A stretch of 39,307 nt of DNA from Chitinophagaceae bacterium (GTDB taxonomy: Bacteria; Bacteroidota; Bacteroidia; Chitinophagales; Chitinophagaceae). The notes below the pieces were generated by a model, which saw only the letters and a program-made list of their open reading frames with translations, did not search any database and was not told where the DNA came from. The stretch is taken from NCBI GenBank assembly GCA_023957755.1, contig JAMLGT010000022.1, forward strand, positions 1 through 39,307, in the 5' to 3' direction. The position numbers were made by a program, and so were the translations under genes. Shown piece after piece: positions 10,740 to 35,267 of the stretch. Position 1 is the first letter of the stretch. Every line of letters begins with the position of its first letter.

Positions 10740-10743
10740 CTTT

Positions 10744-11310
10744 CTATTTTCTAAAATCTACAATCACATTATCCCGTTCATCCTCCTCAATTCCAAAGAA
10801 ATCAAAATGCCTGTAATTAAAAATCCCTGCGAATAACAGCCCGGGGAAACTTTCACCATAAGTATTATTCTCACGAACCGTACTGTTATAGTACCTGCGG
10901 GCACGTTCCAGCAATTCTTCTATTTGTGACAACTGTGTCTGAAACTTTAAAAATGAAGTGTCTGCTTTTAGATCGGGATATGCTTCCGCAACAGCGAATA
11001 ATCTGCCTATTGACTGTTGCAACTGATTTTCTGCCTTAATCCTTCCTGCAATATCATCAGCAGTGACAGATACTGCTGTATTGCGTGATGCAATCACCTG
11101 CGTTAAAGTTTCTCTTTCGTGTGCTGCATATCCTTTGACTGTATTCACTAAGTTGGGAATAAGATCGTGGCGTTTCTTAAGCGCTACATCAATATTGCTC
11201 CATGCATCCTGAACCATATTACGGTTCCTGGCGAATCGGTTAAAAATCACTGAACCATAAAGCAAAAGCATAACAATCACCACAGCCACTCCAATCATCG
11301 TGATACTCAT
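10744..11310 (-). CDS. LemA family protein
   Basis: This 188-residue protein has the LemA plan: one N-terminal membrane helix (residues about 3-25), then the signature NRNMVQDAWSNIDVALKKRH, DLIPNLVNTVKGYAAHE, and a long helical bundle containing LKADTSFLKFQTQLSQIEEL and ARRYYNSTVRENN. LemA proteins are small helical membrane-anchored proteins of uncertain function, frequently encoded with DUF2207 proteins. Here the gene lies between two DUF2207 genes (155 bases after the first, with one small gene before the second). The last 20 or so residues (acidic, EEDERDNVIVDFRK) are not typical of the family as I know it. Confidence 0.92.
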   Translation of the reverse strand: MSITMIGVAVVIVMLLLYGSVIFNRFARNRNMVQDAWSNIDVALKKRHDLIPNLVNTVKGYAAHERETLTQVIASRNTAVSVTADDIAGRIKAENQLQQSIGRLFAVAEAYPDLKADTSFLKFQTQLSQIEELLERARRYYNSTVRENNTYGESFPGLLFAGIFNYRHFDFFGIEEDERDNVIVDFRK

Positions 11311-11465
11311 TAAAAATTTTTGTACAGGTTCATTGTAAAAATAATTGCAGGATTCAGTTTATTAAATACCGAATTCATGGGAGGCGCAAAATTATCCCCC
11401 TCTTTCCTGTAACGCAAAGAGGCAGGAAACCTCCCGGCGAAACTCCTTAGTACACACCGGGTAAT

Positions 11466-14045: not shown

Positions 14046-15155
14046 TCAATCATATAAATTTTCCTGTTTAATTATTTTTCCGTTGTTAAGATTTATTGTC
14101 ATTAGGTAATCGTTATTGCTAACCAACATTTGATCTGCTTTAATAAAGAAGCGTTCAAAACCGTACCTAGGAATCATTGTTTTGAGTTTCTTTTGTGGAA
14201 GCTGTATTTTCCAAATGGTTTTTAGAGAAGTCTTATCAAGCATTGATAATTCCATATCCACTTCATTGTCACTGGCTATGGGTGAGAGTACGAAGAAATT
14301 GTTTTTGTAATAAGTAATAGATGCATCACTATGGGCAGCGGCTGTTTTGTTTTTGGAAAGTGTCAAAAAGCTTACTTCAATGAAATCATCCTGAGAAATA
14401 GTTTTACCATTATTAGTGGTAATACTTTGCCTGCTACCATTGATTTCTTTGGTACCAAATTGCCGACTGGAAATTCTATCAGAAACCTGGAAATCATCTG
14501 CAAAAATATACTCCACCATATCAAATTTTCCCATGACCGTTTCAGCTTTCCCAGTAACAGGGTCAATGCGGTAATTGCGTTTGTCGTTAGCTTCTAACAA
14601 TACCCCCTTCTGTCCCGAAGTATTGACAAAAAAACGGTTGGTGCTTTTCCAATCCACACCGGGATTTAGTTTTTCTAATTCGCCAAAATCAAAGCGAAAT
14701 TTATTGACCTTCATATCATACAAAGCCAATTGGTTCCCTTCGTGATAAACAGACCGCATCAGCCAAACCTCATCACCTTCTGTCCAGATCACATACATTT
14801 GATCACTTTTCCCGGTTTTGTATTGCCCCTCTGTCAATTTCCTTCCGGTGGTGGTTTCCATTACCTGAAAATAAGTCGGAAAGGCCATTCCCCTGATGGT
14901 GATGCTGGCATCCACATCGGGCATTTCAACTTCAGGCTGAAAGGTATAAGCGAAATATTTTCCGTCTTCGCTAAAAACGCCTGTTTTAAATACTGGCACA
15001 TTGGTCAATCCCATCAGACTTCCCATTCCCTCCATTTTGCCAGATGTGAATTTGGAAATAGTATTGCTTATGAATGCCGTGAAAAGTCCCGAGCCGATAA
15101 TACCGATGCCTACTATAATCAGGCTGAGGATATAAAACTTCTTTCTGAAACTCAT
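14046..15155 (-). CDS. membrane-anchored protein of unknown function
   Basis: This 369-residue protein has one N-terminal membrane segment (FYILSLIIVGIGIIGSGLFT) and a large extracytoplasmic part. Repeated short stretches of the type seen in beta-propellers occur: FSEDGKYFAYTF, MYVIWTEGDEVWLMRS, LALYDMKVNKFRF, NRFFVNTSGQKGVLLEA and a final YLMTINLNNGKII. This suggests a propeller or YVTN-like fold, without a family I can name. It sits between the two closest paralogues of the small anchored family (15195 and 13369), 39 bases after the first. It may therefore belong to the same operon and act with them at the membrane. Confidence 0.7.
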   Translation of the reverse strand: MSFRKKFYILSLIIVGIGIIGSGLFTAFISNTISKFTSGKMEGMGSLMGLTNVPVFKTGVFSEDGKYFAYTFQPEVEMPDVDASITIRGMAFPTYFQVMETTTGRKLTEGQYKTGKSDQMYVIWTEGDEVWLMRSVYHEGNQLALYDMKVNKFRFDFGELEKLNPGVDWKSTNRFFVNTSGQKGVLLEANDKRNYRIDPVTGKAETVMGKFDMVEYIFADDFQVSDRISSRQFGTKEINGSRQSITTNNGKTISQDDFIEVSFLTLSKNKTAAAHSDASITYYKNNFFVLSPIASDNEVDMELSMLDKTSLKTIWKIQLPQKKLKTMIPRYGFERFFIKADQMLVSNNDYLMTINLNNGKIIKQENLYD

Positions 15156-15194: not shown

Positions 15195-15653
15195 TTACCG
15201 CTGCGATTGGGCGAACACGACTTTGCTGCGGTGGTTGGGGTCATATTTTACAGCAAAACAGACACCCGGTTGAAACATTCCGATTTGGGTGATCGGAAAC
15301 ATTTGTTTGATTTTCGCTGGCCAGGTTTCTCCTTGCGGATTGCTAACATTAACTTCAATAATAAGTTGATAATATCGTGTAGCCCCGCCTGTCGAAGCTG
15401 ACTGTCCACTCTGGTAACAATTGGTAACAGTAGCAATAGCCGGAAGTCCGTTTAGAATATCTTTAAGTTTTATTTCCGACTTGAGCACTTTGTTTCCAAA
15501 TAAAACCAACAGTAGTATAACGATAATAGTTCCCACAATTGCTGTGATAAACTGAGGACTATCTTCTCCGTAGTGCGTTGCTGCCATTCCCACTATATAA
15601 AAAATAATAGCAATTAAGATGGCACTTCCGAGAAAAGTAAGTAAATATTTCAT
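15195..15653 (-). CDS. small membrane protein, paralogue of the 13369 product
   Basis: This 152-residue protein has two membrane segments (FLGSAILIAIIFYIVGMAA and FITAIVGTIIVILLLVLF) and a soluble domain: IKLKDILNGLPAIATVTNCY, YYQLIIEVNVSNPQGETWPA, IGMFQPGVCFAVKYDPNHR, SKVVFAQ. These blocks align in order with those of the 13369 product and more loosely with the 10347 product. Function is unknown. It starts 30 bases after the RCC1 gene ends, so it may still be on the transcript of the surface-protein operon upstream. Confidence 0.75.
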   Translation of the reverse strand: MKYLLTFLGSAILIAIIFYIVGMAATHYGEDSPQFITAIVGTIIVILLLVLFGNKVLKSEIKLKDILNGLPAIATVTNCYQSGQSASTGGATRYYQLIIEVNVSNPQGETWPAKIKQMFPITQIGMFQPGVCFAVKYDPNHRSKVVFAQSQR

Positions 15654-15683: not shown

Positions 15684-16799
15684 TTAAAACTTCACTTGTT
15701 CAAATTTATTCCTATCACTAAACCCTTTTCCCGTACCCAATTGCCCGGATCCATTGCTTCCAGTACTCCACACGCTTCCATCTTCTTTTAACACTAAAGA
15801 ATGATAAGCACCTGCTGCAATGGCTTTACATCCTTCTATTATCTTTACAAAAGAGCCGCTATTGTTATTGTTACCATTACCTAATTGCCCAAAGTCGTTA
15901 AGTCCTGCAGCCCAAACACTGCCATCATTTTTTAAAAGAAGGGCATGCCCAAAGCCTGTAGCAATAGAAGTGGTATTGTCGGCAATTCGCGTAGGCCTAT
16001 GTACAGTATAAGTATTACCATCACCTAATTGTCCGGCACCATCGAAACCTACACCCCAAACCGTCCCATCTGTTTTTAAGAAGACAGAAAATTGATTGCC
16101 TAAACTCATAGTGCTTACACTTCCGGCGATTTGTACAGGCATGCTACGACTTACATCACTACCATCTCCTAATTGATAAGCAGCATTATTCCCACAAGCC
16201 CAAAGCGTATTATCCGCTTTTAAAATATAGGCATGTGCCGTACCTGCCTTTACAGCTTTTACATTGTCCATTATTTTCACAGGCGTAGTTTGATTATTGG
16301 TATTGCCATTGCCCAATTGCCCAAAGGTATTATTGCCCATTGCCCATAAGCTGTTATCGGTTTTAATAAAGAAGCTGAAATCCTTGCCTGCTGCGATTTC
16401 CTTTACCTCTGTTGAGATTTGAACAGCAGTAGAACGATTGTTGGTGCTACCATCGCCTAATTGACCATAATCGTTATTCCCAATTGCCCATAAACTTCCA
16501 TCTGTTTTTAGAATTAAGATATGATACTCTCCTGATGTCACCTTGCTGACATTATCCATCACCTTTACGGGCAGGTACTGCAACGATGATTTGGTATTGG
16601 GCCACTGATACCTGCTATTGTTGCCCCAGGTATATAATTGACTTTGTGCATTGATAAAAAAGGAAGTATTGATTCCCGAAGCTACCTGCATATTACCCGA
16701 TTTAATATTTTGTGATATGCCAGCAGTACTTAACAGTAAAGCAGCCCCCAGCAAATACGATTTGTTAAAGGGTCTATTTAAATAAAACATTCTTTTCAT
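15684..16799 (-). CDS. secreted RCC1-repeat (seven-bladed propeller) protein
   Basis: The product is 371 residues from ATG at 16799, chosen because it begins a signal peptide (SYLLGAALLLSTAGISQ) and leaves a 22-base gap after the previous gene. Starting at 16835 would overlap that gene. Seven RCC1 repeats are visible by their W/G-N-QLG signatures: LYTWGNNSRYQW, LWAIGNNDYGQLGDG, LWAMGNNTFGQLGNG, LWACGNNAAYQLGDG, VWGVGFDGAGQLGDG, VWAAGLNDFGQLGNG, VWSTGSNGSGQLGTG. That number closes one propeller. Such proteins usually serve as binding platforms. No type IX sorting domain is seen at the C-terminus. It is the last of five surface-protein genes running from 28386. Confidence 0.88.
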   Translation of the reverse strand: MKRMFYLNRPFNKSYLLGAALLLSTAGISQNIKSGNMQVASGINTSFFINAQSQLYTWGNNSRYQWPNTKSSLQYLPVKVMDNVSKVTSGEYHILILKTDGSLWAIGNNDYGQLGDGSTNNRSTAVQISTEVKEIAAGKDFSFFIKTDNSLWAMGNNTFGQLGNGNTNNQTTPVKIMDNVKAVKAGTAHAYILKADNTLWACGNNAAYQLGDGSDVSRSMPVQIAGSVSTMSLGNQFSVFLKTDGTVWGVGFDGAGQLGDGNTYTVHRPTRIADNTTSIATGFGHALLLKNDGSVWAAGLNDFGQLGNGNNNNSGSFVKIIEGCKAIAAGAYHSLVLKEDGSVWSTGSNGSGQLGTGKGFSDRNKFEQVKF

Positions 16800-16821
16800 T
16801 TTATTGTTTGCATCCCCAATG

Positions 16822-18987
16822 TTATTGCACTCCAATTTCTATTTCTTTACTCATACCCGATGTCAGGTTGCCTCCCACTTGTTTCACCTGTATGGCATAT
16901 CGGTATGCTGAACCGCTGCGGACTGAATAGTCCATGAATTCAGGCCTTTCTTTATCTACTGATTGAAGCATGGTCAAAGGTTCGTTGCCTTTGGCACGAT
17001 ACACAATAAAAAAATAGTCGCTTTTCTGAGTGGGCGTTTGCCATGTCAGTTTTACTGCTGTTTCTTTTTTATCGTACACAGCCACTACATTTAATGGAGC
17101 AGGTAAAACATTATTCTTTGAATAAGTCAGATTTACTACAGGCGATTTAGGCGATCGCAAGCCGGTACTGTCAATGGTTTCAGCCGCATAATAGTAAGCC
17201 TTATTCGGAACGATAGCAGAATCTGTAAAGCTGAATTTATTTCTGGCATCAGCCATTATTCTGGTTAGTGATTTCCATTCTTTATCTTTTTCTTTTTTGA
17301 ATATTTCATATCCTGTCACACCCTGGCTTGAGCTTCCTATCCAGTCTGTTTGTATCGCTTCACCCACCACTTTAATACTTTCTGCCAGGGGCGATGTAGG
17401 TGGTATGTACACCGGCTTAGTTAGTATTGCCGGCACCGAATAACCAGAGTGGTTATTATGATAATCAACCGCTACAACTTTGTAGTAAACCCTTCTGTCT
17501 AATGTATGCGTAGGGATGGTGTCATTATACCTGTTATCCATGATAGGATAGCCCGTTATCTGCGCGTATTCGCCATCACGATTGTATGAGTAATACACTT
17601 TATACCCCTTCACATCCTGTTCGGGATTGGCATCCCAGTGCAATGACACGATACCTATCGAATCTACTGTACCTGCCAGGCCGCGTGGAGCAGAGGGCGG
17701 AATACTATCCTTCATCACCGTCATCAATGGCACAGAGGTTGCAAGATTGTATGCAGTATCTACCGCCATCAGCACATAGTAATTCTCTTTATCAACGAGA
17801 GCGCTGGTATCAGTATAGGATGTGGCGCCTTTGGCTAAGAGGTTTTCTGTAAGCGGTTCAAAAGGGCCAGTAACGGTGGGGCCACGGCTTACATAATATC
17901 CCGCTAAGTCAGTATCTGTCTTATTGGCCTCCCATGAAATCATAATCTTTTTGCCACCCAGATGCTGATAGGATTTTATGCGGGGCACTTCGGGAGCGGT
18001 AAGGTCAATACCATGAGTCTTAACGGGGTCGCTGAATGGGCTTGATTCTGCAAATGCTGTATTGCCGCTAATCCGATATTGATACTCTTTGTAGTTGACG
18101 GGAATTGAGTCTATATATACCTGATTATATTTAAGAATGGAAGCAATCTTCAGGCCTATTGAATCAGGCCTTTCGTCTTCGGGCAGGGACTCCGGTGGAC
18201 TATAGGGCGAGTAATATGGAAGCTTATTGAGCCGGTTCCAGGTTTTACCGCCATCATCACTGCGCTCAATATTATAGGTACTAAAATTCCCAACCTGTTG
18301 CCTGTTCCATTGCAATTCTATCTGTTTATCACGGCTGATAGCCTGCAATCCCTCAGGAACGGGTTCTTTGGAAGGTTTGATATTGATTACCGTAACCATA
18401 GCCGTATCCACCATAAAATCTGCATTTGCTGTATCTGAGGTGATGATGTATATATACCTGCCACCGGGGCGCACATCCTTGTCCACCCAGCGAAGCCCGG
18501 CTACTGTAGCTGCTTCCGGCGAAAAATCAGCAGCCTGCATACTGTACATAAACAGCATCCCCGTTGAAGACTTTACATCTCTCAACTGTTCTACAAACGA
18601 AGCATCCGGCCGTTTTAACATAGAGTCCACATTACTATACATTGCCATATCCAACAGGGAAATGTATTTATTGTTTTCTCCATACTGTTGTTTTATTTGT
18701 GCACGACTCCAGGGCAGGATAGCAGTTTTAGTCAGTTGCTTTTCGTAAATCTTATTCTCCGAGACCACATCATATCTTCTGATCTGATATCCTTTGTACC
18801 TCGCCATGTTCCACGCATTCCAGTTAGACGGGGCCCACCTCAAGACGATAGAATCCTCAGCAACCTTTGCAACGGCGTAAACCGGAATGGGAGTAGCCTT
18901 TTCCTGTGCATTGATATTGCTGGCCGCAAAGCCAATTAGTATCACAGCCATCATTACACGTCTGGACAAATATTTCAGATTTTTCAT
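16822..18987 (-). CDS. secreted protein with about six fibronectin type III domains
   Basis: The product is 721 residues from ATG at 18987, which starts a signal peptide (MKNLKYLSRRVMMAVILIGF, cleavage near NINAQ). The frame opens 10 codons earlier, but that would lengthen the basic region. FnIII-type strands recur about every 100 residues: SIVLRWAP, KQIELQWNR, KKIMISWEAN, GIVSLHWDAN, AIQTDWIG, AVKLTWQTP. Each is followed by a GY/Y-x-I/V-R/Y strand (YKGYQIRRY, YNIERSDDGG, GYYVSRGP, GYKVYYSYN, GYEIFKKEK, YFFIVYRAK). No enzyme domain and no type IX sorting signal is seen. It starts 33 bases after the giant protein gene ends and is followed at 22 bases by the RCC1 gene. It is probably a structural part of the same surface assembly. 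Confidence 0.88.
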   Translation of the reverse strand: MKNLKYLSRRVMMAVILIGFAASNINAQEKATPIPVYAVAKVAEDSIVLRWAPSNWNAWNMARYKGYQIRRYDVVSENKIYEKQLTKTAILPWSRAQIKQQYGENNKYISLLDMAMYSNVDSMLKRPDASFVEQLRDVKSSTGMLFMYSMQAADFSPEAATVAGLRWVDKDVRPGGRYIYIITSDTANADFMVDTAMVTVINIKPSKEPVPEGLQAISRDKQIELQWNRQQVGNFSTYNIERSDDGGKTWNRLNKLPYYSPYSPPESLPEDERPDSIGLKIASILKYNQVYIDSIPVNYKEYQYRISGNTAFAESSPFSDPVKTHGIDLTAPEVPRIKSYQHLGGKKIMISWEANKTDTDLAGYYVSRGPTVTGPFEPLTENLLAKGATSYTDTSALVDKENYYVLMAVDTAYNLATSVPLMTVMKDSIPPSAPRGLAGTVDSIGIVSLHWDANPEQDVKGYKVYYSYNRDGEYAQITGYPIMDNRYNDTIPTHTLDRRVYYKVVAVDYHNNHSGYSVPAILTKPVYIPPTSPLAESIKVVGEAIQTDWIGSSSQGVTGYEIFKKEKDKEWKSLTRIMADARNKFSFTDSAIVPNKAYYYAAETIDSTGLRSPKSPVVNLTYSKNNVLPAPLNVVAVYDKKETAVKLTWQTPTQKSDYFFIVYRAKGNEPLTMLQSVDKERPEFMDYSVRSGSAYRYAIQVKQVGGNLTSGMSKEIEIGVQ

Positions 18988-19020
18988 AATACTACTTTTC
19001 TTTTTAAATTCTTTCAAGCG

Positions 19021-22000
19021 TTACTTAGTATAGTTGAATTTCCCATCAACAGATGATGCCATAATTGATTTAAAAGGGTTATTGTAGCTCAGTCTATACT
19101 CCCTGCCCTGTACCGAAGGAAAACGCTGGAAGTCACGTTGCTTTTTAAGATGGATCGCGATTAGCTGGATCATTAATTCATTTGATTGTGAGCCAAACAG
19201 ATAATTATAATTAGATATTTTAACGGATGCTCCGCTAAGCCCGGTTGCAATCGTCCTGTATTCATTGAAAAGAGTATGTTTCAGTGTAGAGAGGCCATTA
19301 GCAGAAACTGGTAAGCCAAATGATAGCAACGCATCTTCTGCCTGCCGATACTGGGCCAATCTTTCATTGATATACTTCATATTACCAAAATAAGACTGCA
19401 CTGCCCCTTCAAACAGGTTAAAATCTGTGAAGTAATAGAAATCACGCATCCAGGTAAAGTTTATCACCGGACGTGTTTCTTGATATTGTCTCATGGGAGT
19501 TCCGGACTGCATAACCACTATGCCGCCGTTCTTCTGCTGCATGGCATCGTAATTCATGCTTCCACCGGAACTGCTGAATGCACTGGTGTATGATGCCGGC
19601 AGGTGGGTGAATGTGGTTTGTGCAGGAGCTGCAGTTGAAGATGAAGCCCTGCCGCCGCCTGTACCACTACCCGTATTGTCCAAGACAGCCTGCATCAATC
19701 CATCAGTATTAAAATATGCAGCTGCGCCCCCTCCGGTACCCATTTTTATACCTCCATTCTTTACACTTCCCAGTAGCATCACATTCATTACGCTCCAGGT
19801 TTCAAACACATAGGGTTGTGTCGGGTTATTATTTCCTGATAAAAATTCATAATTTGGCTTAAATAAGAATGTAGCAATGCGCGCCTCATCCCATCCCCAG
19901 TCAATTTTCAAACCATTGAGGGGAACAGTCGAACCATAGCGATAGGTGTTAAACAACATCCATTGGTCGTTTCCATTTGTCAGCTTTTTGTAGGAAAAAT
20001 TGATATCAAATAGATTAGCTGCATCTCCGGAGAAGAGATTGATGTTCGTCGGAACTTCAATTCTGAACAGTGGCGGGAAGAATTCATTTGTACCGAGTCC
20101 CGTTTTGAATTTTTTAATCTCAAATACGTCAAATGGTTCATCCTTAGGCGATACACTGAAATTGATCACGTTAAATAGAGTGCTACCTTTTACTGCGATC
20201 GTGTGGCCACTCATCTTTTCCCAGAAGGTATTGTATTTGCTGGTGTGGAAGTCAATTGAAAATAGAGAAACACCATAAACAGAAGTTGCCCTCTCCATCA
20301 CCGAGGTTGATTTCGTATTCAGTATCAGGTCCAGATTCCCGGGTGTCGAGGAAATCACGTTATCCCAGTTGGCAGCGCCGGAACCCGTTTTGTCAAAAGC
20401 TGCTTTTACGGTAGTGTTATGGGCTGCTATATTACCATTGTTTTTTGCCTTTATGACCAATTGGTTGGTGGACTGGGTCATATCCTTCTCCAACATCTGA
20501 GCAGCATTAACTGGTACCAGCATCAGATTCATGCGATATCCTTCATTGAGGCTCAGCCCTGCCGGTAATTGGAAACTAATTTGTTCCACTGCTCCGGGAT
20601 TCCAGGTAAAGGAAGTAGAAACAGTATCGCTGCCGCTGAATGCAGGAATAAACTGAACCACCTTTTTATACTTCGGATCATTCAATGGCACACGATCCAT
20701 ACGAGGTTCCTGTAAAAACCTCAACCCACCCCTGCCGGAAAACTCATTCTTCAGCAGATAACGTTGTCCATTAATCGGATAAGTATAAGCTATCTGTTTA
20801 TTATTCAGCTTTGCGTCTGCTATTTTGGTACGGAAGTTTACCACCTTCTCCTGCCTCATCACTTCTTTTAGACTCTTGTCCTGCTGATATTGATATGCGA
20901 CCACTGTTACTTTAAAAGAGTAATCTTTTTGCTGAGCAAATTCCCTGTCTTTCAGGTAGTTAGCTACTCTGTTATCGTTAGTATATTTGACATTTACCGG
21001 ATAAGCATCATTGTTGTCTTTAGTAGCTTTCAATTCAGTAAAAGATGCTTTGAAAACATAGAAACGGTTGAATGGCAATGAGTGATCGGCATCCGGTGGA
21101 TTAGGATAGCTGACAACCCCATCTGTTATCACTTTACCATTTTTGTCTTTCAGCTTATACCCCTCATTTGTATAGGCGCCTCCAGATACAGGTACATTAA
21201 AAGCCACGTACGGATAATCATAGATACCGATTTCTGAAGGAGAGGTTTCGGCTATCAACTCCAGATGTGCCAACGGATCGTATTCAGGATAGCATTTAGT
21301 ACCAAAGTCAAATGCCACAGTCTCGTCAACAGATATGACGCCTACGATAGACCCCTGAATTTTCACCATGCCTTCACCCCAGGTGGGATTAGGCAACCCG
21401 CCCCTTAAGTAAGCACCCAATTGCAGAGAGATCAATGATAAATCACCAATCCCCAAATGCACACCCACATCCATTCCAAAATAGGCATACAGCTGACCGA
21501 TAGCATAATATCCATTATAGCCAATAGCTCCATTTACGCTACATGCCCCTGTTTTGCCTGGTTTGGTTTCTACCATAGCAAGGTCAAACCCAATCATACC
21601 GTTTGCCTTTGCATAGAATATCAGGAAATCTAAACCTATCTTAGCATCTACTGCTGCGCCAAACATAAATCCACCTGCAGCATTTGTTTTCAGAAACTGG
21701 GAGATAGCCTGTGCATTTTGTTCAGGGCTGCTGGAGCCGCCCGGCTTCTGCACCTGATGTCCCGAACCTCCTTTAAGGAAGGTTCTGATTTTATCAGGTA
21801 GTGGTGCGAACGCCGGCAACGAACCCGCACCGACCCCCATACACAGATATGCTGTAGCCGTTAATTTGGCATAGAGTGCATCTCCCTCATCACCAAAACC
21901 AAATTCAGCCTTTACCCTGTTGCCCTTACCCTTGTCTGGCCGTCCTACATAAAGATAGTATTTAGCATTGGCGTCCTTACCGCCACCATGCATCCAAACG

Positions 22001-25000
22001 GGAATGTTCAGATTGGCGAAGCCCATGCTGGCCTTGACATCTATGGTAGCATCGTAGGTTGCGGTAGTAAACCCAAATTCCATATCTACGGCAGCATCTA
22101 CCAATCCTTTTTTATAATTAGTCGGAGTGGTAATAATATGCCCGTCTCCATTGAGTACCAATTCAGATAAACCTCCATGACTGATTTCTGCATTCACGGT
22201 AAGCGATGCATTTACAATTGTCGGGTTGGCATAGGTTACAATAATATTAGCCTGAAGTACACTTTTTGCAGCCTTTGGTACCATCGTTAGCTTTGCCGTT
22301 TCACCCGCAGTGCGAATTTTTTCAAAGTCAATAGCCTCAATCCCCATATTACTGAAATAGCCGCCCCCAAAGCCATTAAGCATTAATCCCCCAAAAATTG
22401 GAATACCGGTTGAAGTATAAAACTTGCCGCCTACACCACCGTATTTAATGTTACCCTTGGTTCCGAAATAAGCTTCTGCTGTGATATCAGCAAAAACGAA
22501 ATCAGCATGTAAATTTCCATGTACCCCATCGCCGTAGGTAGCATTGCCACTCCAGAAATTCAGTTTTCCGTCAATATTTACGGGACCAAACCCTCCCGCT
22601 ATATAAACAGACTCTACTGCTACACGCGAAAATTCTACCTTCGGCTTCAATCCTACCATAGCATATTTACCTACTACCCCTAAGTTGGTGCCTCCGGATA
22701 CGGTTGCCACGTCGCCAAAACCCACATTCACACTCAGGTCAAAAAACACCCCCACTTCGCCCGCCTTGGGCCGTTTCAATTCAAAATTATCTATCGTGAA
22801 CGCAAAACCTGATATCTTGCCGGTTGTTTCGGCAGGAGCAAAATCATCCTCTGCTGAAGGAACAAAATCATTGCCTGCATAAGGCCCGCTGTTTACTGCA
22901 TACACCGACATGTTGTCATAAGTATCTATGAACGCAGACGATGGTTTGTTCCCTTTTTGAATGGGTACCTGGCCCAGGGTCATAGACTCCAATCCAAAGG
23001 AAAACCCATCTTTGTTAGATACCATCAGATTCTGCACACCCAACAATGGAATATTACCACTAACAGGTATGCCTGCACCTGAAGCATCAAAATGCATGGA
23101 TATACCTCCTGTGAGTTTGGCTTCAACATACACATCTTTATTTTTTTCCTTTACAACCGAAAACCGTGAATCACTTGATACAGAAAGTGTCGCCTTCCAC
23201 ATGTCCATATCCATTTGTTCTTTGGGGTGGATATTGAAACTGTAGGTATATCCATCGCTTTCATTTTCTCCCTTATTCAACAGGCAGGTATAACTCAACC
23301 CTGTTTCGCTGATGGGCAGCCATACCGAACCTTTCATATCCATAGTCTGGTACAAGTTATTGCGTACAATAGGTATGTTGATTTCGCTCACCACAAAACC
23401 CCACCCACCCAAGCTGGCATTATCGGTCTTTTTGATTACGTCGGTAGCGCTGATGCGCATGGTTACACCTGCATCGTCAATAATAAGTCCGTTAAAGTTA
23501 ACCGCAGCGCTTTTGCTTACTACGAAGTCTTTTGGAAAATACATACCTAAATTGGGCATGTAAAATCCTTTAAAGGTTCTGTCCACTGTGCCACCCTTTT
23601 CTGCATACCCGGCAGGGAAAGACGCAGGAGTGGATAGGGCGGCAATATTGCGAGTATTAGAATGGTCGTAATAGAATCCTGAGGTAGCCTGTATCTGAAA
23701 TCCAGGGAGTGATTTAAAATCAAATTTATCACTGAAACTCAAGTCTGCAATCCAGTCGTTCCAATCGCTAAAATCAAACGTAGCGTTTAACTTAACCTTT
23801 TCTCCGGTTGGCTTACCATCTCCAGTTAGCGCCCTCATCTCATCGGGCATCGTCAGGTCGGCCTTTACAAATACCTTTTCAAAACCATTGGCTGTACTCC
23901 ATTTCAGATAGGTAGTCTTAGTTGTATCTATCTCACCTGCTATCCCGTCAGCAGCCCCTTTAAGTGTAAATGCTGTACCTCCCAGATTGATATGCCTGTC
24001 TGAAGGCAAAAACAACAATCCGTTGGTAAATGAAAATCCGTCTCTCTTAATACAGAATTTTGCACCGGCAAGCGACAGCCATTCGTTAGCTGTACCCGCA
24101 TCGGGGATGTTCATACTGAACAACATACGCATATCCGTACCCGTAGATGAAAAAATAATACCTGTTATTGCCATGGTAGCATTCACGCCGCCAATATTTT
24201 CATTGTCTAATCCCAACGGAAAATCAACAGGTGCACTACCTGTAATCTGTTTAATCTGGTTGGCTACTTTATTCACCCTGTTCATAATCGGGTTGACCTT
24301 ATTACCTACCAGGCCATTTACTTTATTTCCAAAATCCGGAAGACTAAGATTCAGAAAATCTTCTCCTGCCGCATGATCCCAGGTAGTAGTAACCTCACCT
24401 GCCAGCAATTGTTTTTTTTCATTAATCCGGATGTTTTGAAAAACTACATTCAGCATGATGTCTTTGCCGTAAGGCTTCCATAATATGGTACCGCTGCCCT
24501 TAAACTGGTCGCCATTTACCTGTTGTGCATCTTTCACCACCATATCAAAAGCGCCCACATGCACCACATCGGATGCATTCAGATTTCCTGTGAATACAGG
24601 AATGCTGCCATCTATTTTAGGCACATCTTCGCAAGCACCGGCAATTGTCAGTGCCCGATATCCGGGCCCGTCACCGGTTTTATCCGATCCTCCTGCCCCC
24701 AGAGGCCTGTATTCTAAGGTTGCAATCTCACTATATCCCTGGTTGGCAATCTCAAGGGGATCGGTAGTAGTACGAGGCAGATTGGCTTTCACCCTAACCA
24801 CATATTTCTTTCGTGAACGAAAAACATTCGGATACTTCATTGTATCCAGAATAAATCCAGGTCGCATCAGATTTCTTTGTCTGAAAGTATAGGGATTATA
24901 GAGCGCATCCTTAATCGCCTGACCTGGAAAAATTTCACGTATTTCCAGATCGTATGTGATACCACGCAGGGGCAATCCACATGTAGAGGATGGGGGCGTC

Positions 25001-25686
25001 CATGCAAATTGTATCTGTGATGACTGCGGTGTGAAAGTAGTAACACCCCTTAATCCACCTGTCAGGGTTGAAACCGGCATAGTAAACTGGGGTGCCGATG
25101 CCGTATAACAAATTCTGAATGTTGCACATCCTGCACCTATAGGAGATAACGGCCTTGACTGGCCAGGAACATCGTAATCATAAGCGTTTACGCATATCCG
25201 ATAGGTACCTTCCGGCAATTTGTAATTGATTGCATTTTGCCTGAGCGCACTCAGGTCAAGGTTCTCAAACATCAATTGGCTTCTCGAAAAATTCCCGAAA
25301 GTCTGCTCAATTAAATCCTTGTCTAATTGTATGGTCTGCTGTGGCCCTAAAATAATCGGTTTCGAAGGCCTGTAATCAGGTCGGAGCGATACACTCATTG
25401 GTGTGGGTGCCAATCGTTCAATTCTTCCACTTAATTTGACACGCTGCGGCGACTGAGAAGTGTTGACAATACGAATCATTAGTTTTTGCGTTAATCCCTG
25501 AAACTGCTGATTTTGAACTTCTGCTGCCAATTGCGGCAGGTAGGGACTCACCGGCTGTTGTACGATTACGTTTACCTGTACAGGTTGCTGTGCCCACACA
25601 AAACAACCTGACAATAAAAAGGCCATTAAAAGCTTAATCCTGCGTATCGCAATTGAAAAAGTCTTTATAGGGGAAGGAGTTTTCAT
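19021..25686 (-). CDS. giant (2221-residue) secreted surface protein
   Basis: The N-terminal signal (RRIKLLMAFLLSGCFVWAQ) contains a possible lipobox (LSGC, Cys28) and a possible SPI site after WAQ, so it may be a lipoprotein or a free secreted protein. The first 330 or so residues have the plan of large Bacteroidota exported proteins with TANFOR-type regions, as I recall them: QPVQVNVIVQQPVSPYLPQL, then a YKLPEGTYRICVNAYDYD block and CATFRICYTASAPQF. A long middle part of repeated beta-strands and Gly-rich turns follows (for example GGFGPVNIDGKLNF, GGVGGKFYTSTGIPIFGG, LNGFGGGYFSNMG). It looks like a repetitive beta-helix or barrel-like body. The C-terminal 500 residues are more mixed. No catalytic motif is recognised. 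It lies 12 bases after the beta-barrel gene, so the two are surely co-transcribed. Confidence 0.82.
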   Translation of the reverse strand: MKTPSPIKTFSIAIRRIKLLMAFLLSGCFVWAQQPVQVNVIVQQPVSPYLPQLAAEVQNQQFQGLTQKLMIRIVNTSQSPQRVKLSGRIERLAPTPMSVSLRPDYRPSKPIILGPQQTIQLDKDLIEQTFGNFSRSQLMFENLDLSALRQNAINYKLPEGTYRICVNAYDYDVPGQSRPLSPIGAGCATFRICYTASAPQFTMPVSTLTGGLRGVTTFTPQSSQIQFAWTPPSSTCGLPLRGITYDLEIREIFPGQAIKDALYNPYTFRQRNLMRPGFILDTMKYPNVFRSRKKYVVRVKANLPRTTTDPLEIANQGYSEIATLEYRPLGAGGSDKTGDGPGYRALTIAGACEDVPKIDGSIPVFTGNLNASDVVHVGAFDMVVKDAQQVNGDQFKGSGTILWKPYGKDIMLNVVFQNIRINEKKQLLAGEVTTTWDHAAGEDFLNLSLPDFGNKVNGLVGNKVNPIMNRVNKVANQIKQITGSAPVDFPLGLDNENIGGVNATMAITGIIFSSTGTDMRMLFSMNIPDAGTANEWLSLAGAKFCIKRDGFSFTNGLLFLPSDRHINLGGTAFTLKGAADGIAGEIDTTKTTYLKWSTANGFEKVFVKADLTMPDEMRALTGDGKPTGEKVKLNATFDFSDWNDWIADLSFSDKFDFKSLPGFQIQATSGFYYDHSNTRNIAALSTPASFPAGYAEKGGTVDRTFKGFYMPNLGMYFPKDFVVSKSAAVNFNGLIIDDAGVTMRISATDVIKKTDNASLGGWGFVVSEINIPIVRNNLYQTMDMKGSVWLPISETGLSYTCLLNKGENESDGYTYSFNIHPKEQMDMDMWKATLSVSSDSRFSVVKEKNKDVYVEAKLTGGISMHFDASGAGIPVSGNIPLLGVQNLMVSNKDGFSFGLESMTLGQVPIQKGNKPSSAFIDTYDNMSVYAVNSGPYAGNDFVPSAEDDFAPAETTGKISGFAFTIDNFELKRPKAGEVGVFFDLSVNVGFGDVATVSGGTNLGVVGKYAMVGLKPKVEFSRVAVESVYIAGGFGPVNIDGKLNFWSGNATYGDGVHGNLHADFVFADITAEAYFGTKGNIKYGGVGGKFYTSTGIPIFGGLMLNGFGGGYFSNMGIEAIDFEKIRTAGETAKLTMVPKAAKSVLQANIIVTYANPTIVNASLTVNAEISHGGLSELVLNGDGHIITTPTNYKKGLVDAAVDMEFGFTTATYDATIDVKASMGFANLNIPVWMHGGGKDANAKYYLYVGRPDKGKGNRVKAEFGFGDEGDALYAKLTATAYLCMGVGAGSLPAFAPLPDKIRTFLKGGSGHQVQKPGGSSSPEQNAQAISQFLKTNAAGGFMFGAAVDAKIGLDFLIFYAKANGMIGFDLAMVETKPGKTGACSVNGAIGYNGYYAIGQLYAYFGMDVGVHLGIGDLSLISLQLGAYLRGGLPNPTWGEGMVKIQGSIVGVISVDETVAFDFGTKCYPEYDPLAHLELIAETSPSEIGIYDYPYVAFNVPVSGGAYTNEGYKLKDKNGKVITDGVVSYPNPPDADHSLPFNRFYVFKASFTELKATKDNNDAYPVNVKYTNDNRVANYLKDREFAQQKDYSFKVTVVAYQYQQDKSLKEVMRQEKVVNFRTKIADAKLNNKQIAYTYPINGQRYLLKNEFSGRGGLRFLQEPRMDRVPLNDPKYKKVVQFIPAFSGSDTVSTSFTWNPGAVEQISFQLPAGLSLNEGYRMNLMLVPVNAAQMLEKDMTQSTNQLVIKAKNNGNIAAHNTTVKAAFDKTGSGAANWDNVISSTPGNLDLILNTKSTSVMERATSVYGVSLFSIDFHTSKYNTFWEKMSGHTIAVKGSTLFNVINFSVSPKDEPFDVFEIKKFKTGLGTNEFFPPLFRIEVPTNINLFSGDAANLFDINFSYKKLTNGNDQWMLFNTYRYGSTVPLNGLKIDWGWDEARIATFLFKPNYEFLSGNNNPTQPYVFETWSVMNVMLLGSVKNGGIKMGTGGGAAAYFNTDGLMQAVLDNTGSGTGGGRASSSTAAPAQTTFTHLPASYTSAFSSSGGSMNYDAMQQKNGGIVVMQSGTPMRQYQETRPVINFTWMRDFYYFTDFNLFEGAVQSYFGNMKYINERLAQYRQAEDALLSFGLPVSANGLSTLKHTLFNEYRTIATGLSGASVKISNYNYLFGSQSNELMIQLIAIHLKKQRDFQRFPSVQGREYRLSYNNPFKSIMASSVDGKFNYTK

Positions 25687-25697
25687 ACTTCAATTAT

Positions 25698-27407
25698 TTA
25701 AAATTGGCAGGTATATTGGATACCGGCTGAAAAATTTTTGGTTCTTACGGCAGTGGGCACTAAACTGATTTTATCCAGGGGGTCCAGATTGACCGGAGGG
25801 GTAAGTATATAACTACCGTACAAGCTAAAGCTGCTCTTACCCGCTGTAAGGCTGCTACTGAGCGAAAATGTAGTGTTATTACCCGGAGTATCACCAGTTG
25901 ATTTATTTAAAAAATATCCCACGTTACCCTGTACTGAAAGTTGATGCTGTTTAAGTAGTTGGATATTGGCACCCACATTTATCCCTGTGGATTGATACTC
26001 ATAATCCTTCTGACTATAAACACTATAATTGATACCCGTATTGATACCAAAATATTTTTCTATAAACTGCAGATCGTAAGTACCATTTACATTGATATTG
26101 TTCCCTGCCGTCATGTCTTTTGTTGAAGGATTGCGGTCAACCAGGTCAGTATAGTTAATACTGGCAGTGACTGTGTGTTGTTTGTTAGCAGCATAGGTAT
26201 TGAAGGAAGGTGAGAAAGCGTAATTCATCATCAGTTGATTCATCCTTACATCTTCATCAATAGCCATTGTGCCATCTTTCTGATATACATTAGCACCATT
26301 TACATTCAGGTTCAGATTCCAGTGTTGGTTCAGATTGGCATTGATAGAAAAGTTGCCTGCCATTGTCTGCAATTCAGAAATCAACGCTTTAGACAGGTTG
26401 TTATGCTGTGCATTAAAAGAACCATTAAGATTGAGATGCCCCCTGAATAAATTAGTCCCAAAGTTTCCGCTGTAGGTTTCAATATCATTTACCATGTAAA
26501 TTGTACCGAGAGACATATAGTCAGGCTGAATACGCTGGTAACCCCCGGAGATGTTAAATCCTTTAAGCGTCAGACCTAACTGTGTCCTTCCCGAATAACT
26601 AAACACCGTACTGTAATTGATGGGAGAAAATGTTCTCACAAATTTGGGTACTTCATAATGCCCGATGCTGTCAAGGCTTTCAAAATTCATATCCCTGTTA
26701 AGAAGGCTGAATGCCACATCACCTGAAAAAGTAAGCACCTTGAAAAGACGATACGACCACGCACCGCCTACAGCCGTATTCTCCTGTGGCTTAAGCGTAT
26801 TGAGCGAATCTTTGATTGGCGGAATAGATCCTTTATCATCTTTTCCGTGAAAAAAGCTTAGTGAAAACTCATTACCATCGTTTCCGGCACCAATCTTAAA
26901 CCCATAACCTATACGGCTGTATTGCGGTTCAATTCGATGGTCAAACGTAGTGTCTTCTGTGATGGCTTTATTAATGCGGCCATAGAAACCGGAAAACCGG
27001 AACTTACCCGGGCGCAGCTCTATACCTCCTCCCAGGAAACTCTGACCGTCAAATACAAATGGGTTAAGTGACATACTGCGATAACCCAGGTGCACTGTAA
27101 GCCACTTGTAAGTAGGGCTCATACCAAACTGAGTAAACGGAGTCGTATAACTGGTACTATACTGATTCACCACGAAGGAAAGTGGAATGCTGAAACCATA
27201 AATACTGGCTGTAAGGTTTCCATTCAAATTCCAGCTAAAAGGATCACGAGTCATATCGGGCTCGTTAGACGAGTAGTAGTCTGTTCCCGCACCTATACTC
27301 CCTGAAAGGTGAAATGGTTTCTGTTCCTTCAGGTTAGTCAGGTCCTGTGCATGCAATCCAAAAATATTTAGAGCAAGTACAGTTATTATTGAAAAAATCT
27401 TTTTCAT
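25698..27407 (-). CDS. outer-membrane beta-barrel protein
   Basis: This 569-residue protein has a signal peptide (MKKIFSIITVLALNIFGLHA) and then almost entirely alternating hydrophobic and polar strands with aromatic girdle residues. Examples are FHLSGSIGAGTDYYSS, FSWNLNGNLTASIYGFSIPL, TVHLGYRSMSLNPF, FRFSGFYGR, FSLSFFHGKDD and FSLSSSLTAGKSSFSLYGSY. It ends FSAGIQYTCQF, with the terminal phenylalanine typical of BAM substrates. No plug, TonB box or OmpA domain is seen. The gene starts 40 bases after the collagen-like lipoprotein gene and ends 12 bases before the giant protein gene. It could be the membrane anchor or exporter of that protein; this is inference from position only. Confidence 0.85.
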   Translation of the reverse strand: MKKIFSIITVLALNIFGLHAQDLTNLKEQKPFHLSGSIGAGTDYYSSNEPDMTRDPFSWNLNGNLTASIYGFSIPLSFVVNQYSTSYTTPFTQFGMSPTYKWLTVHLGYRSMSLNPFVFDGQSFLGGGIELRPGKFRFSGFYGRINKAITEDTTFDHRIEPQYSRIGYGFKIGAGNDGNEFSLSFFHGKDDKGSIPPIKDSLNTLKPQENTAVGGAWSYRLFKVLTFSGDVAFSLLNRDMNFESLDSIGHYEVPKFVRTFSPINYSTVFSYSGRTQLGLTLKGFNISGGYQRIQPDYMSLGTIYMVNDIETYSGNFGTNLFRGHLNLNGSFNAQHNNLSKALISELQTMAGNFSINANLNQHWNLNLNVNGANVYQKDGTMAIDEDVRMNQLMMNYAFSPSFNTYAANKQHTVTASINYTDLVDRNPSTKDMTAGNNINVNGTYDLQFIEKYFGINTGINYSVYSQKDYEYQSTGINVGANIQLLKQHQLSVQGNVGYFLNKSTGDTPGNNTTFSLSSSLTAGKSSFSLYGSYILTPPVNLDPLDKISLVPTAVRTKNFSAGIQYTCQF

Positions 27408-27447
27408 TTCTAAATTGGGTAATCAGTTCTTAAGATGACTTGAAGCA

Positions 27448-28386
27448 TCAGTCCCTGAGATTGTAAAGGGATTTGAGTTCACCAAAATCAACAGGCTTAG
27501 ACCTGAGAATACCTCCGGCCGCACCCTGAATTAACACGATCCGGACTTTGATGGACGCAAAATTGTACGAATTAGGAGCGTCATTCGGGCCCAGATCTAC
27601 CCCAAAGTGGACTACACCGTTTTGAAAGGACAAAGCCCTTATATTATACTGCACCACAGCCCCTTGTACATCTATAGTACGATATACAATCGGAAAAAAC
27701 TGCCAGGTGGTAGCCGTATCGGGTGCATTATTAGCTATACCATAAATAAGAACCGCACCGTTGTTGAAAACATCAGTCGTAAGTGCCGGTATATTGACAT
27801 CAAAGAAATCATTAATCAGCACATTATTGGCGACCCAGCTTTTGACATTAGGACTGGCACCGCCACCACCCAATACCAGTCCGGTTCCCCAATTAGTAGC
27901 AGAAAGTTTAGGGCCGTAAAGCATCAAGTTTTGCTTGTCCAGATAATAATCCCCGATCGCTCCAAGGGATGTAGCAGGAGTACCACTGCCGGAAAGTATC
28001 TGTGAGCCTCTGTCGCCCTTATCGCCTTTATCACCCTTGTCACCCTTGTCACCCTTATCACCCTTGTCACCTTTGCCTCCCTTATCGCCCTTGTCCCCTT
28101 TATCACCTTTTGCACCTCTGAGATTAAAAGGTACACCCCAACCTGAAGATTGTTTAGGTCCATAGAAATCACCATTAGAAATATTTACATAATAGTCTCC
28201 AGGATTTCCTACACCGGCACCCGGAACAGTACGTCCACTATAAATAATACTGCCGTCTTTGCCCGCCGGGCCTACGGGGCCAGCTTCTCCTTCGGGCCCT
28301 AATGCCCCGGCGGGGCCTTCTTTACCACAGGAAAAGGAAATGATTATTAAAAGTAAAAAAGATAAGGGCAGGAAAAACTTTTTCAT
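27448..28386 (-). CDS. collagen-like repeat lipoprotein, first gene of the surface operon
   Basis: This 312-residue protein begins with a signal and lipobox (LLLIIISFSC, Cys20). Collagen-type Gly-X-Y triplets cover residues 21-46 (GKEGPAGALGPEGEAGPVGP) and 91-128, the latter mostly GDK triplets. Each block is followed by a GDYY...YGPK linker, the kind commonly found in bacterial collagen-like proteins. The C-terminal 130 residues form a globular beta domain without a name I know. It is expected to be lipid-anchored with the triple helix pointing outward. It is the first of five same-strand genes, with a consensus-like promoter 60 bases upstream and a two-component system beyond that. Confidence 0.9.
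   Translation of the reverse strand: MKKFFLPLSFLLLIIISFSCGKEGPAGALGPEGEAGPVGPAGKDGSIIYSGRTVPGAGVGNPGDYYVNISNGDFYGPKQSSGWGVPFNLRGAKGDKGDKGDKGGKGDKGDKGDKGDKGDKGDKGDRGSQILSGSGTPATSLGAIGDYYLDKQNLMLYGPKLSATNWGTGLVLGGGGASPNVKSWVANNVLINDFFDVNIPALTTDVFNNGAVLIYGIANNAPDTATTWQFFPIVYRTIDVQGAVVQYNIRALSFQNGVVHFGVDLGPNDAPNSYNFASIKVRIVLIQGAAGGILRSKPVDFGELKSLYNLRD
28003..28116 (-). repeat. 9-bp tandem repeat encoding Gly-Asp-Lys triplets
   Basis: The collagen block is encoded by about 12 near-identical 9-base units (GGTGACAAG or GGYGATAAR) with only third-position variation. Such a run can lose or gain whole units without shifting the frame. Confidence 0.8.
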
Positions 28387-28599: not shown

Positions 28600-29232
28600 T
28601 TAAACCAACCGCTCTTTTAATGCTTTGCTTACCGCTTCTGCCTGCGAATGAACGCCCAGCTTTTCATAAATACTTTTTATATGCGTAGTAACCGTACCAA
28701 GGGTAATTCCTTCATGAAAAGCAATCATCTTATAACTATTTCCATCGGTTAATGACTGGAGTATTTGTTTTTCGCGATTGGTGAGTGCATAATCAGTCTT
28801 TCTGGTATGCTGGTTGTTGAAAAATTTCAGCACTAAGCGTGCTACCGCCGGCGACATAGGAGCGCCACCTTCCATCACTTCATGTATTGCATTGGCAAGG
28901 CGTGTGGTCAGATGTTGCTTGAGTATATAGCCAGTTGCACCATTTTTAATAGCTTCTAGCACATGGCCATCATCGTCAAAAACGGTTAACATTATAACAG
29001 GCAGATCATTATATTTCGACCTTATTAGATTTAATCCCTCAATACCGTTGACTTCCGGCATATCAATATCCATCAGAATTACATCTGGTTGATTCTGTTT
29101 TATATTATCCAACACATTGCCGGCATTTTCGAATGATGCCAAAAGTTCAAAATCTTCAGCAAACGAAATTAAAGATGCCAGACTGGTTCGGAGTTCTGTG
29201 TTGTCTTCATACAATAATATCCTGATAGGCAT
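28600..29232 (-). CDS. NarL/FixJ-type response regulator
   Basis: This 210-residue regulator has a receiver domain at residues 1-125: acidic pair Glu9-Asp10, phospho-acceptor Asp55 in DVILMDIDMPEVNG, the switch threonine in PVIMLTVFDDD, and the conserved lysine in GYILKQ. A LuxR-type helix-turn-helix lies at about 145-205 (LTNREKQILQSLTDGNSYKM, then THIKSIYEKLGVHSQAEAV). It is thus a DNA-binding transcription factor activated by phosphorylation. The kinase gene lies just upstream at 29388-31283, and the two form the pair usual in Bacteroidota. The next gene downstream is the collagen-like lipoprotein of the surface operon, 213 bases away, which is a plausible target. Confidence 0.93.
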   Translation of the reverse strand: MPIRILLYEDNTELRTSLASLISFAEDFELLASFENAGNVLDNIKQNQPDVILMDIDMPEVNGIEGLNLIRSKYNDLPVIMLTVFDDDGHVLEAIKNGATGYILKQHLTTRLANAIHEVMEGGAPMSPAVARLVLKFFNNQHTRKTDYALTNREKQILQSLTDGNSYKMIAFHEGITLGTVTTHIKSIYEKLGVHSQAEAVSKALKERLV

Positions 29233-29387: not shown

Positions 29388-31283
29388 TCACTTAACCCCG
29401 GCCCCCACCAACGACACCTCTAATAAAATAATCGTACCACTTCCTTTCTGTGAATTTATCTCTAATCTGCCATTCATGTATTCAGCTCTCAGTTTCATAT
29501 TATGAAGCCCATTGCCCATTGCCACTGTCTCTGCATCAAATCCACAGCCGTAATCCTTTATCTCTAATACCAGCATGTCGTCGCGCTGGTCCACGTGAAT
29601 ATCTACCTGGGTTGCCTTGCTATATTTTCGTGCATTATTTACCGCTTCCTTAAATATCATCATAAAATCTTTCCTCACCTGTGGTGATAACTTTCTCTTT
29701 GGATCGCTCAGGTTTTTGGCAAAGGCAAAGGGAATGTTTGATGTACCCAAAATATCTGAGGCCATCTTATGCATCTGTGACACAATGGCCCCCATACTAT
29801 CATTTTCCGGGTTGAGCGACCACACCACTTCACGGATGCCTCCGGCCACTTTGTTTGAAAGCCTGTTTATGTTTTCTGCTGCTTCCTTAATCTTAGGGTT
29901 CGATTCATTTTGCATCCCCAACATACTGCTGATGATTTGAATGCTTGAAATGGTAGATCCGATGTCATCATGTAAATCTCCGGCTATTCCCAGTCTTACC
30001 TTTTCCAGTTCCTTTGCTCTTTTTACTTTCTGCGCTATCCGCAGCCGGCTGATAATGACGATAGCGGAAAAGAGTATTAACATCCCCACAATCAGCACCA
30101 GGTACATTCTGTTCTTATAAGTTGCAGTTGCGTTCCGTTGTTCAGATAAATTCAATTGATATTTCAGAGAATCTTCCCGTGCTTTCTGATCAAATTCATA
30201 CCGGATACCCATTTTTTGGTACTCAAGATTTTGGGCGTGCGTCAAAATGCTGTCTTTCACATTCGCAGCCATTTCAAGGTATTTGATAGACTTCTTGTAA
30301 TCACCTGTTTCTTTATAATACCTCGCTCTCAGGGGGTATAAATTTGCCAGGTAGGTCACATCAGATACTGCACTTTCGCAGGGTTCACACTCTTTGAGAT
30401 AATAGGATGATTTTTGAATATTTCCCTTTCGTAACCACGCATCAGACAGATTGGTAATCACCTGACACCAAACCCTTAATCGCCGGGAAACATTCATTTC
30501 CAAATATTTCAATGCTCTTTCGTTATGCAATATTGAAGAATCTAACTGGCCTGATTCCATAAAAGCATTTGCAATATTAGCCGAACGAATAGCCAGTCTG
30601 CTATAATTATTAGTCCCCAACAGGTGTTCAATTTCGCTGCCCATCTTAAAGTATTTGATAGATTCGGCATAATCTTTTTTTGTATAGTATATATTGCCGA
30701 TAGTACCATAACAACTTGCCATCCCCGACGAATCATTCGTCTCTCTCCTTATCTCTAATGATTTGAAAGAATACTCCAACGCATTTTCCCAATCTTTCAG
30801 GTTATCATATACATTTCCAATATTAAGGTAAACTGCTCCTAAAGCCTTCTGATCCTTCAGATTTTCGGATAGTTCGAGGCTTTTAAAAAAGTAGTCCAGC
30901 GCCACCTTGTAATGATTTTGGCTTGCTGCAGCCACCCCGGCACGGCTATAACTTTTGGCCTCCTCTAGTGGGAGATTTTCCTTCTTAAAGAGTGAGGCTG
31001 CTAAAATGCATGTATCAATCATTTCAGCAAGTTTACCATCCTGATACAGGTACTCACTTTCGTTATACAAAATTCTGGCGTAATATTTATTCGATTTATT
31101 CTTTCGGGCAATATCCTTTGCCATATTAAGGTAGCGGTAAGATTCACTAATGTCCCTTTTGGAAATGTCTTTTGCCTTATTAAGCAATTCTGTTATCTGA
31201 AGACTGTCAGTATCATTACGGTTCGCAAATGAATAGGAACTACAAAGTAAAGCCAGTAATAAAAGAATGGGTGTTCGCAGCAT
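29388..31283 (-). CDS. TPR-type sensor histidine kinase (HisKA_3)
   Basis: The product is 631 residues from ATG at 31283. The frame is open to a TTG seven codons upstream, but the ATG directly starts the signal peptide (MLRTPILLLLALLCSSYSFA). Residues about 45-340 are tetratricopeptide repeats (ALGAVYLNIGNVYDNLKDWE, ASCYGTIGNIYYTKKDYAES and others) placed in the periplasm. A membrane helix follows at about 393-413, then the HisKA_3 dimerisation domain (GIAGDLHDDIGSTISSIQII, His438) and the ATPase domain (EAVNNARKYSKAT, DYGCGFDAETVAMGNGLHNM). It should phosphorylate the LuxR-type regulator encoded 155 bases downstream. A near-perfect promoter precedes it at 31361-31390. Confidence 0.92.
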   Translation of the reverse strand: MLRTPILLLLALLCSSYSFANRNDTDSLQITELLNKAKDISKRDISESYRYLNMAKDIARKNKSNKYYARILYNESEYLYQDGKLAEMIDTCILAASLFKKENLPLEEAKSYSRAGVAAASQNHYKVALDYFFKSLELSENLKDQKALGAVYLNIGNVYDNLKDWENALEYSFKSLEIRRETNDSSGMASCYGTIGNIYYTKKDYAESIKYFKMGSEIEHLLGTNNYSRLAIRSANIANAFMESGQLDSSILHNERALKYLEMNVSRRLRVWCQVITNLSDAWLRKGNIQKSSYYLKECEPCESAVSDVTYLANLYPLRARYYKETGDYKKSIKYLEMAANVKDSILTHAQNLEYQKMGIRYEFDQKAREDSLKYQLNLSEQRNATATYKNRMYLVLIVGMLILFSAIVIISRLRIAQKVKRAKELEKVRLGIAGDLHDDIGSTISSIQIISSMLGMQNESNPKIKEAAENINRLSNKVAGGIREVVWSLNPENDSMGAIVSQMHKMASDILGTSNIPFAFAKNLSDPKRKLSPQVRKDFMMIFKEAVNNARKYSKATQVDIHVDQRDDMLVLEIKDYGCGFDAETVAMGNGLHNMKLRAEYMNGRLEINSQKGSGTIILLEVSLVGAGVK

Positions 31284-31360
31284 AGCAAAGGAGTGGATTA
31301 ACAAGTGGCATCAGGAAATTAAAGAATCACAATTCTATTATCTTCCTGATTCCCACCAAA

Positions 31361-35265: not shown

Positions 35266-35267
35266 AG

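Follow-up and report, generated by a model that had tools for sequence, protein, structure and literature searches.

What holds together five neighbouring genes in a Chitinophagaceae genome, which encode a collagen-like protein, an outer-membrane barrel, a giant protein, an FnIII protein and an RCC1 propeller protein, and what does the barrel do for the giant beside it? The window analysed here, a stretch of 39,307 nucleotides, is the whole of contig JAMLGT010000022.1 of that host genome (3.67 Mb, 35 contigs).

Gene products and extent of the locus

All five ORFs (15684-28386) lie on the minus strand, as an earlier note on this DNA had stated. From the upstream end they encode a collagen-like probable lipoprotein (27448..28386, 312 aa; PF01391, E 1.3e-8) with a lipobox-like SFSC recognised by eye, the outer-membrane barrel (25698..27407, 569 aa; family profile A1 and model), the giant (19021..25686, 2221 aa), an FnIII-repeat secreted protein (16822..18987, 721 aa from its ATG start; PF00041, E 1.3e-9, the sole FnIII domain over the cut-off), and a secreted RCC1 propeller protein (15684..16799; seven stretches matching PF13540). 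Signal peptides were judged by eye. Measured from ATG starts, the intergenic gaps are 40, 11, 33 and 22 bases, which agrees with the earlier values except for the second, previously given as 12. No enzyme family was matched over its cut-off in any of the five proteins, in line with the enzyme motifs reported missing before; sub-cut-off matches of the FnIII protein include Amidase_3 (E 0.015) and an FnIII-bearing CbhB model (74.5 bits vs 1950).

The barrel matches no Pfam family over cut-off (best sub-threshold E 0.01) and found no match in a PDB sequence search. Its model, built from 25 sequences, has a mean pLDDT of 81.5, a pTM of 0.71 and 26 strands by DSSP, one of them only 5 residues long. 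The first Foldseek match of this model is MtrB (6r2q_B, E 4.1e-12, TM 0.47 by query), one of 300 matches with E <= 0.001, and it is a coarse one because the identity is 12% and the rmsd 13.9; the other top matches are wide barrels, ushers included. Judging from the model, these matches indicate a wide barrel and not a family.

The giant consists of an N-terminal domain (N-domain; residues 30-336, or 30-348 as drawn at 24643..25599, family A7), a conserved middle region (352-1736) and a variable end, and it matches both the giantN (E 1.7e-101) and the giantM profiles. No Pfam family was matched by the giant at E <= 1. A homolog was found in 38 of the 298 order genomes, and the middle region has matches in 45 of 395 phylum genomes. 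No match for the middle region was found in a PDB sequence search, and residues 352-1500 were modelled poorly (pTM 0.41); LptD and ApoB100, considered as folds for this region, were dropped (TM by query <=0.14, weak model). The middle region is strand-rich and amphipathic (alternation 2.94 vs 2.50 in the barrel) and may itself meet the membrane, as a second membrane or groove domain. A collagen-like GTP repeat was seen inside the giant of L136. At L089, L094, L108 and L110, the N-domain and the middle region are encoded apart, by different genes of one cluster.

The same-strand run continues upstream to a LuxR-type response regulator (28600..29232; PF00072 and PF00196) and a TPR sensor histidine kinase (29388..31304, 638 aa from its listed TTG start; HisKA_3, HATPase_c, TPR), both probable regulators, with gaps of 213 and 155 bases. 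Downstream of the RCC1 gene it extends to a small membrane protein (15195..15653, gap 30), whose relative at L124 carries DUF3592 (49% over 91 aa), and to a 369-aa protein (14046..15155, gap 39), which matches no Pfam family at E <= 0.001, has a relative directly after RCC1 at L124 (31% over 320 aa) and possibly belongs to the same unit. Since the run continues both ways and relatives of these flanking genes recur beside the L124 cassette, the unit probably comprises more than five genes. The promoter that had been placed only before the first gene was not recovered: the 213-base gap there holds no minus-strand site among the 60 listed sigma-70-like sites of both strands, and none of the five Bacteroidota-type consensus matches. 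Over the window, there were 61 sigma-70-like sites (shuffled sequences gave 46.5 +/- 5.7, an excess of about 2.5 sd), 21 terminator-like sites (14.5 +/- 3.5) and 5 Bacteroidota-type promoter matches (1.5). No promoter-like site is placed to start the unit, and these scans were set aside as evidence on it.

Elsewhere in the window, two arrays of diverged direct repeats of the CACGGAGTTGCACGGAG type (35241-35698 and 36954-37364) share a 133-nt pair that is 89% alike between the arrays; they overlap doubtful ORFs, and the gene between them is presumably Fic-like. Positions 8649-13193 encode two large membrane proteins with glycine-serine-rich tails, similar to each other by eye, on either side of a gene that we take to be LemA-like.

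A core of barrel, giant and FnIII genes

The window carries the barrel, giant and FnIII genes as three adjacent genes on one strand, and this arrangement recurs widely. Around giant homologs of the order, 40 stretches were fetched and the 39 with a giant ORF of at least 450 aa were counted, L060 being dropped because the ORF picker kept another ORF over its giant match; no more than three same-strand genes away from the giant, a barrel was found at 33/39, FnIII at 27/39 and both at 26/39. Loci from the phylum search, which omit L101 (flank only) and L081 (the host genome's own third copy), gave 26/28 for the barrel, 26/28 for FnIII and 24/28 for both. For the named loci, of which 13 of 18 were counted, the other five being repeats, recognised by equal length, of contigs already included, the values were 11/13, 12/13 and 10/13. 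These counts include several loci that stem from one genome, and they are lowered where a locus is cut off by the border of its contig or stretch.

The host genome itself holds three diverged cassettes (C15, C31 and C35) with barrel identities of 26-39%. Over 52 cassettes, out of 61 loci entered, the Mantel r was 0.84 for N-domain and barrel, 0.50 for N-domain and FnIII and 0.54 for barrel and FnIII, and for each of the three gene pairs 0 of 999 permutations reached that value; these correlations partly reflect the species tree. All three genes of the window cassette have their nearest relatives in the L033-L035 group, and all three of the C31 cassette at L040; for the C35 cassette, the nearest foreign relatives of the three genes disagree. 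The barrel, giant and FnIII genes thus form the core, inherited largely as a unit. Conserved order of the five families, a check that the earlier note proposed, was seen for the three core genes, while the RCC1 and collagen-like genes are accessory and all five were found together only in the window. The barrel of the second host cassette (L032, G000:C31:145812-147503) has an in-frame TAG and shows up as two ORFs of 471 and 91 aa, possibly through decay or a sequence error.

The barrel is also common across the phylum, where profile A1 matches at least 163 of 395 genomes at E <= 0.001, a lower bound because at most three candidates were scored per genome. Among 20 barrels hand-picked down the list, 14 have an N-domain or giant match adjoining or fused, and two others have large ORFs in their vicinity that match nothing. 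The remaining four, with neither kind of neighbour, include the 800-aa variants L161, L166 and L167, which stand in a different context with no recognisable giant.

Profile A7, built from 36 N-domain members, many of which came from loci linked to a barrel, has matches in 109 of 395 phylum genomes at E <= 1e-8. Among the 150 N-domain matches listed, a listed barrel lies within 3 kb of 93 (about 0.5 expected by chance over the 395 genomes), within 10 kb of 113 and within 20 kb of 121, which leaves 29 with none within 20 kb. Of the genomes with listed N-domain matches, 90/92 also hold a listed barrel. Conversely, for the first 94 barrels listed, an N-domain match from the list lies within 20 kb in 83 cases and is missing in 11. 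In five ORFs (L099, L104, L105, L110 and L164), the N-domain forms the front part of a fusion with the barrel, and at L153 and L154 it is joined to RCC1 repeats, with a barrel alongside.

The TANFOR domain was described in 2020 as the mark of a polymorphic toxin class in PMC7073777. Of two further papers that contain the name a single time, PMC11796102 deals with antimicrobial toxin genes and the other, by its title, with an unrelated subject. Its model TIGR02542 is matched by 17 of the 36 A7 members (best 2.7e-10), by the C35 paralog in the host genome (E 1.3e-5, the match lying inside the N-domain) and, at E <= 0.1, by 5/16 whole giants. The window giant has no TIGR02542 match at E <= 1, and its N-domain alone none at E <= 0.01. 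Searched over the 395 phylum genomes, TIGR02542 gave 16 matches in 13 genomes, none over the curated cut-off; 11/16 lie within 11 kb of a barrel, as do 10/11 of those with E <= 2e-5, five of them directly adjacent. From profile similarity, the N-domain of the giant probably belongs in the family of the TANFOR domain.

The accessory genes are distributed more unevenly. The host genome's single PF01391 match at E <= 0.001 is the collagen-like protein of the window, and a collagen-like gene adjoins the cassette in four genera and at L121. Across 23 genomes, all collagen matches fall in the gene near the cassette in the host (1), G032 (4), G045 (7), G106 (5), G143 (4) and G123 (3); G236 has six, of which one or more are away from it, eight other genomes have collagen elsewhere among the matches listed, and eight have none. 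Near the cassettes at L033, L035, L050 and L064, larger collagen proteins carry S74 endosialidase-chaperone parts, those of L033 and L035 also YadA-head repeats, and they resemble tail or trimeric surface fibres. PHROG tail-fibre matches of the window's collagen-like protein, considered as a sign of phage origin, are read instead as shared collagen repeats.

All seven RCC1_2 matches of the host genome fall within the window's RCC1 protein. At L124 (JAGFIU010000024.1), an RCC1 protein with 48% identity over 328 aa occupies the corresponding position in a run of kinase (three ORFs), response regulator, barrel, giant (two ORFs), FnIII, RCC1 and relatives of both downstream genes, with no recognised collagen gene. 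Linkage of RCC1 is not general, because six other genomes have RCC1 proteins at other places, and there the surroundings contain no match to the barrel, the N-domain or the giant; at L174, the window's RCC1 query had no match. Both the RCC1 and the collagen-like genes are accessory, not obligatory.

Response-regulator copies that are 62-65% identical to the window's stand beside the cassettes of L124 and L033-L035, those of L033-L035 at 64-65%, and at L033-L035 the kinase relatives come after FnIII and the regulator. Two-component genes lie within five genes of 17/39 order loci, 3/28 phylum loci and 6/13 named loci, so that this linkage is common in the order and near background in the phylum set, with the background of about 12% derived from 34 response regulators over the cut-off and an assumed gene number. 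A divergent protein of the IgGFc-binding family (E 4e-83) is encoded near the barrel at L084:767-3310, and ORFs of similar size and orientation occur at L086 and L088.

Proposed role of the barrel

We read the locus, with a probability of about 0.6, as a Bacteroidota cassette in which the wide barrel is the dedicated partner of TANFOR-family proteins, holding them and exporting or displaying them. The computation shows the conserved unit, its largely joint inheritance, the domain fusions and the barrel model; a physical contact between the two proteins is inferred, as are a putative docking side, export direction, ligand, mode of regulation and role in adhesion or recognition. Barrel and giant would most likely both pass through Sec, to judge by their signal peptides recognised by eye; the barrel would insert in the outer membrane, where the giant would dock to it by its TANFOR-family domain, from the periplasm or within the lumen. 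Even-stranded barrels normally have both termini on the periplasmic side, and in the fusions the N-domain comes before the barrel, so docking from either of these places is likely. The rest of the giant would be displayed at the surface or released from it, with the FnIII protein as a putative partner; the collagen-like and RCC1 proteins would serve as interchangeable parts for surface binding, and the sensor kinase and the response regulator encoded upstream may switch the unit on.

The fusions and the tight linkage are best explained by a physical partnership of the barrel and the TANFOR-family domain. It had been suggested previously that the barrel is an anchor or exporter with the giant as its passenger; the partnership is well supported by adjacency, the Mantel r of 0.84 and the five fusions, but a direction of movement does not follow from them. 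The giant may pass through the barrel, be anchored in it or form part of a membrane complex. Adhesion or recognition at the surface is more likely here than killing, because no toxin or enzyme family was found in the window copy and the C-termini are related within genera; the faster-diverging end of the giant, seen between the window and L033, is a counterpoint, as a toxin end might show the same.

The barrel could instead be an uptake channel for a large substrate, which the giant, FnIII, RCC1 and collagen-like proteins would capture in a Sus-like manner. The binding-type modules, the adjoining sensor system and the wide barrel would suit such a channel. We consider it unlikely, since neither a TonB plug nor a SusD-like family was matched in the five proteins (E <= 1), since none of their matches to enzyme families exceeds the cut-off, and since the size of the giant and the fibre-like collagen, YadA-head and S74 accessories of its relatives look more like surface display.

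In a slightly less probable explanation, the giant is a polymorphic toxin of the TANFOR class that leaves the cell through the type IX secretion system (T9SS), with the barrel as helper or bystander. This explanation draws on the TIGR02542 matches of the 17/36 family members, and in PMC7073777, Jana, Salomon and Bosis proposed T9SS as the TANFOR export route and reported Fn3 (enriched), SprB, PKD and sorting-domain genes near TANFOR genes. The host does encode SprA (2447 bits) and has 49 sorting-domain matches; 0/49 of these lie on the window contig, which covers 39 kb only. The last part of the giant diverges faster, as this explanation would have it, with 17-23% identity between the window and L033, where the end is the least conserved part, vs 51% at the N-terminus. 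Against this explanation, the five proteins have no T9SS sorting domain (TIGR04183, PF18962; E <= 1), as had been noted before, and toxin domains were sought in the final 361 aa of the window giant and in the C-termini of nine other giants, where no Pfam family was matched at E <= 0.01, although unknown toxin folds may escape such a search. The gene after the giant encodes the FnIII protein and is no recognisable immunity gene. Moreover, giants within a genus keep related C-termini instead of swapping them (last bins of L033/L035 64-86%, L033/L034 48-67%, L050/L052 80-94%), and five ORFs join the N-domain to a barrel.

That the five genes are chance neighbours is scarcely credible and already contradicted for barrel, giant and FnIII: all five together are found only in the window, and most cassettes examined have no adjoining collagen-like or RCC1 gene, but core adjacency is far above chance, domains are fused, L124 has RCC1 in the same place, and the host genome's sole collagen and RCC1_2 matches both lie here.

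The reading of the barrel as a dedicated partner can be widened, more tentatively, into a two-partner outer-membrane route of Bacteroidota apart from T9SS, in which a 26-strand barrel might recognise TANFOR-family domains and export or display whatever follows them, be it giant adhesins, RCC1 propellers or polymorphic toxins. If this is true, the exit of TANFOR toxins from the cell would be explained by the barrel route, and many unclassified giants of Bacteroidota may share one delivery or display platform.

Comparison with known systems

MtrB encloses a partner protein, and in the Shewanella Mtr complex (6r2q chain B) it is the first, coarse fold match of the barrel model. No CxxCH motif (0) occurs in the five proteins, where a multihaem partner of an MtrAB-type complex was looked for. 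Ushers of chaperone-usher systems are wide protein-exporting barrels, and FimD and PapC are among the best fold matches of the barrel, at a coarse similarity only; no usher, chaperone or pilin family was matched among the five proteins in Pfam and NCBIfam.

In type Vb (two-partner secretion) systems, by definition, a giant passenger with a conserved N-terminal domain is encoded next to its dedicated barrel, and the barrel gene of the window likewise adjoins a giant gene of this kind. Type Vb barrels have 16 strands, whereas the model here has 26, and the five proteins contain no POTRA, FhaC-type or TPS domain in Pfam and NCBIfam.

The TANFOR polymorphic toxins are another close parallel. The window giant has neither a TIGR02542 match nor a recognised toxin domain. 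The barrel, the usual neighbour here, is not named in the part of the PMC7073777 text available, and its main text contains none of the terms barrel, porin, operon or 'outer membrane protein'; in open-licence literature searched by title, as far as it was covered, nothing was found on a barrel/TANFOR pairing. The earlier note knew no name for the combination; it is not entirely nameless, since the N-domain probably falls in the family of the published TANFOR domain (TIGR02542). In both cases, giant secreted proteins of Bacteroidota start with a domain of what is probably the same family, the host has a T9SS, and Fn3 lies nearby, here as an adjacent FnIII gene found within three genes in 27/39, 26/28 and 12/13 loci. 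For the published TANFOR class, T9SS is a hypothesis for the exit route, and the phylum-wide barrel, a neighbour of this domain family and at times its fusion partner, offers a concrete and testable alternative.
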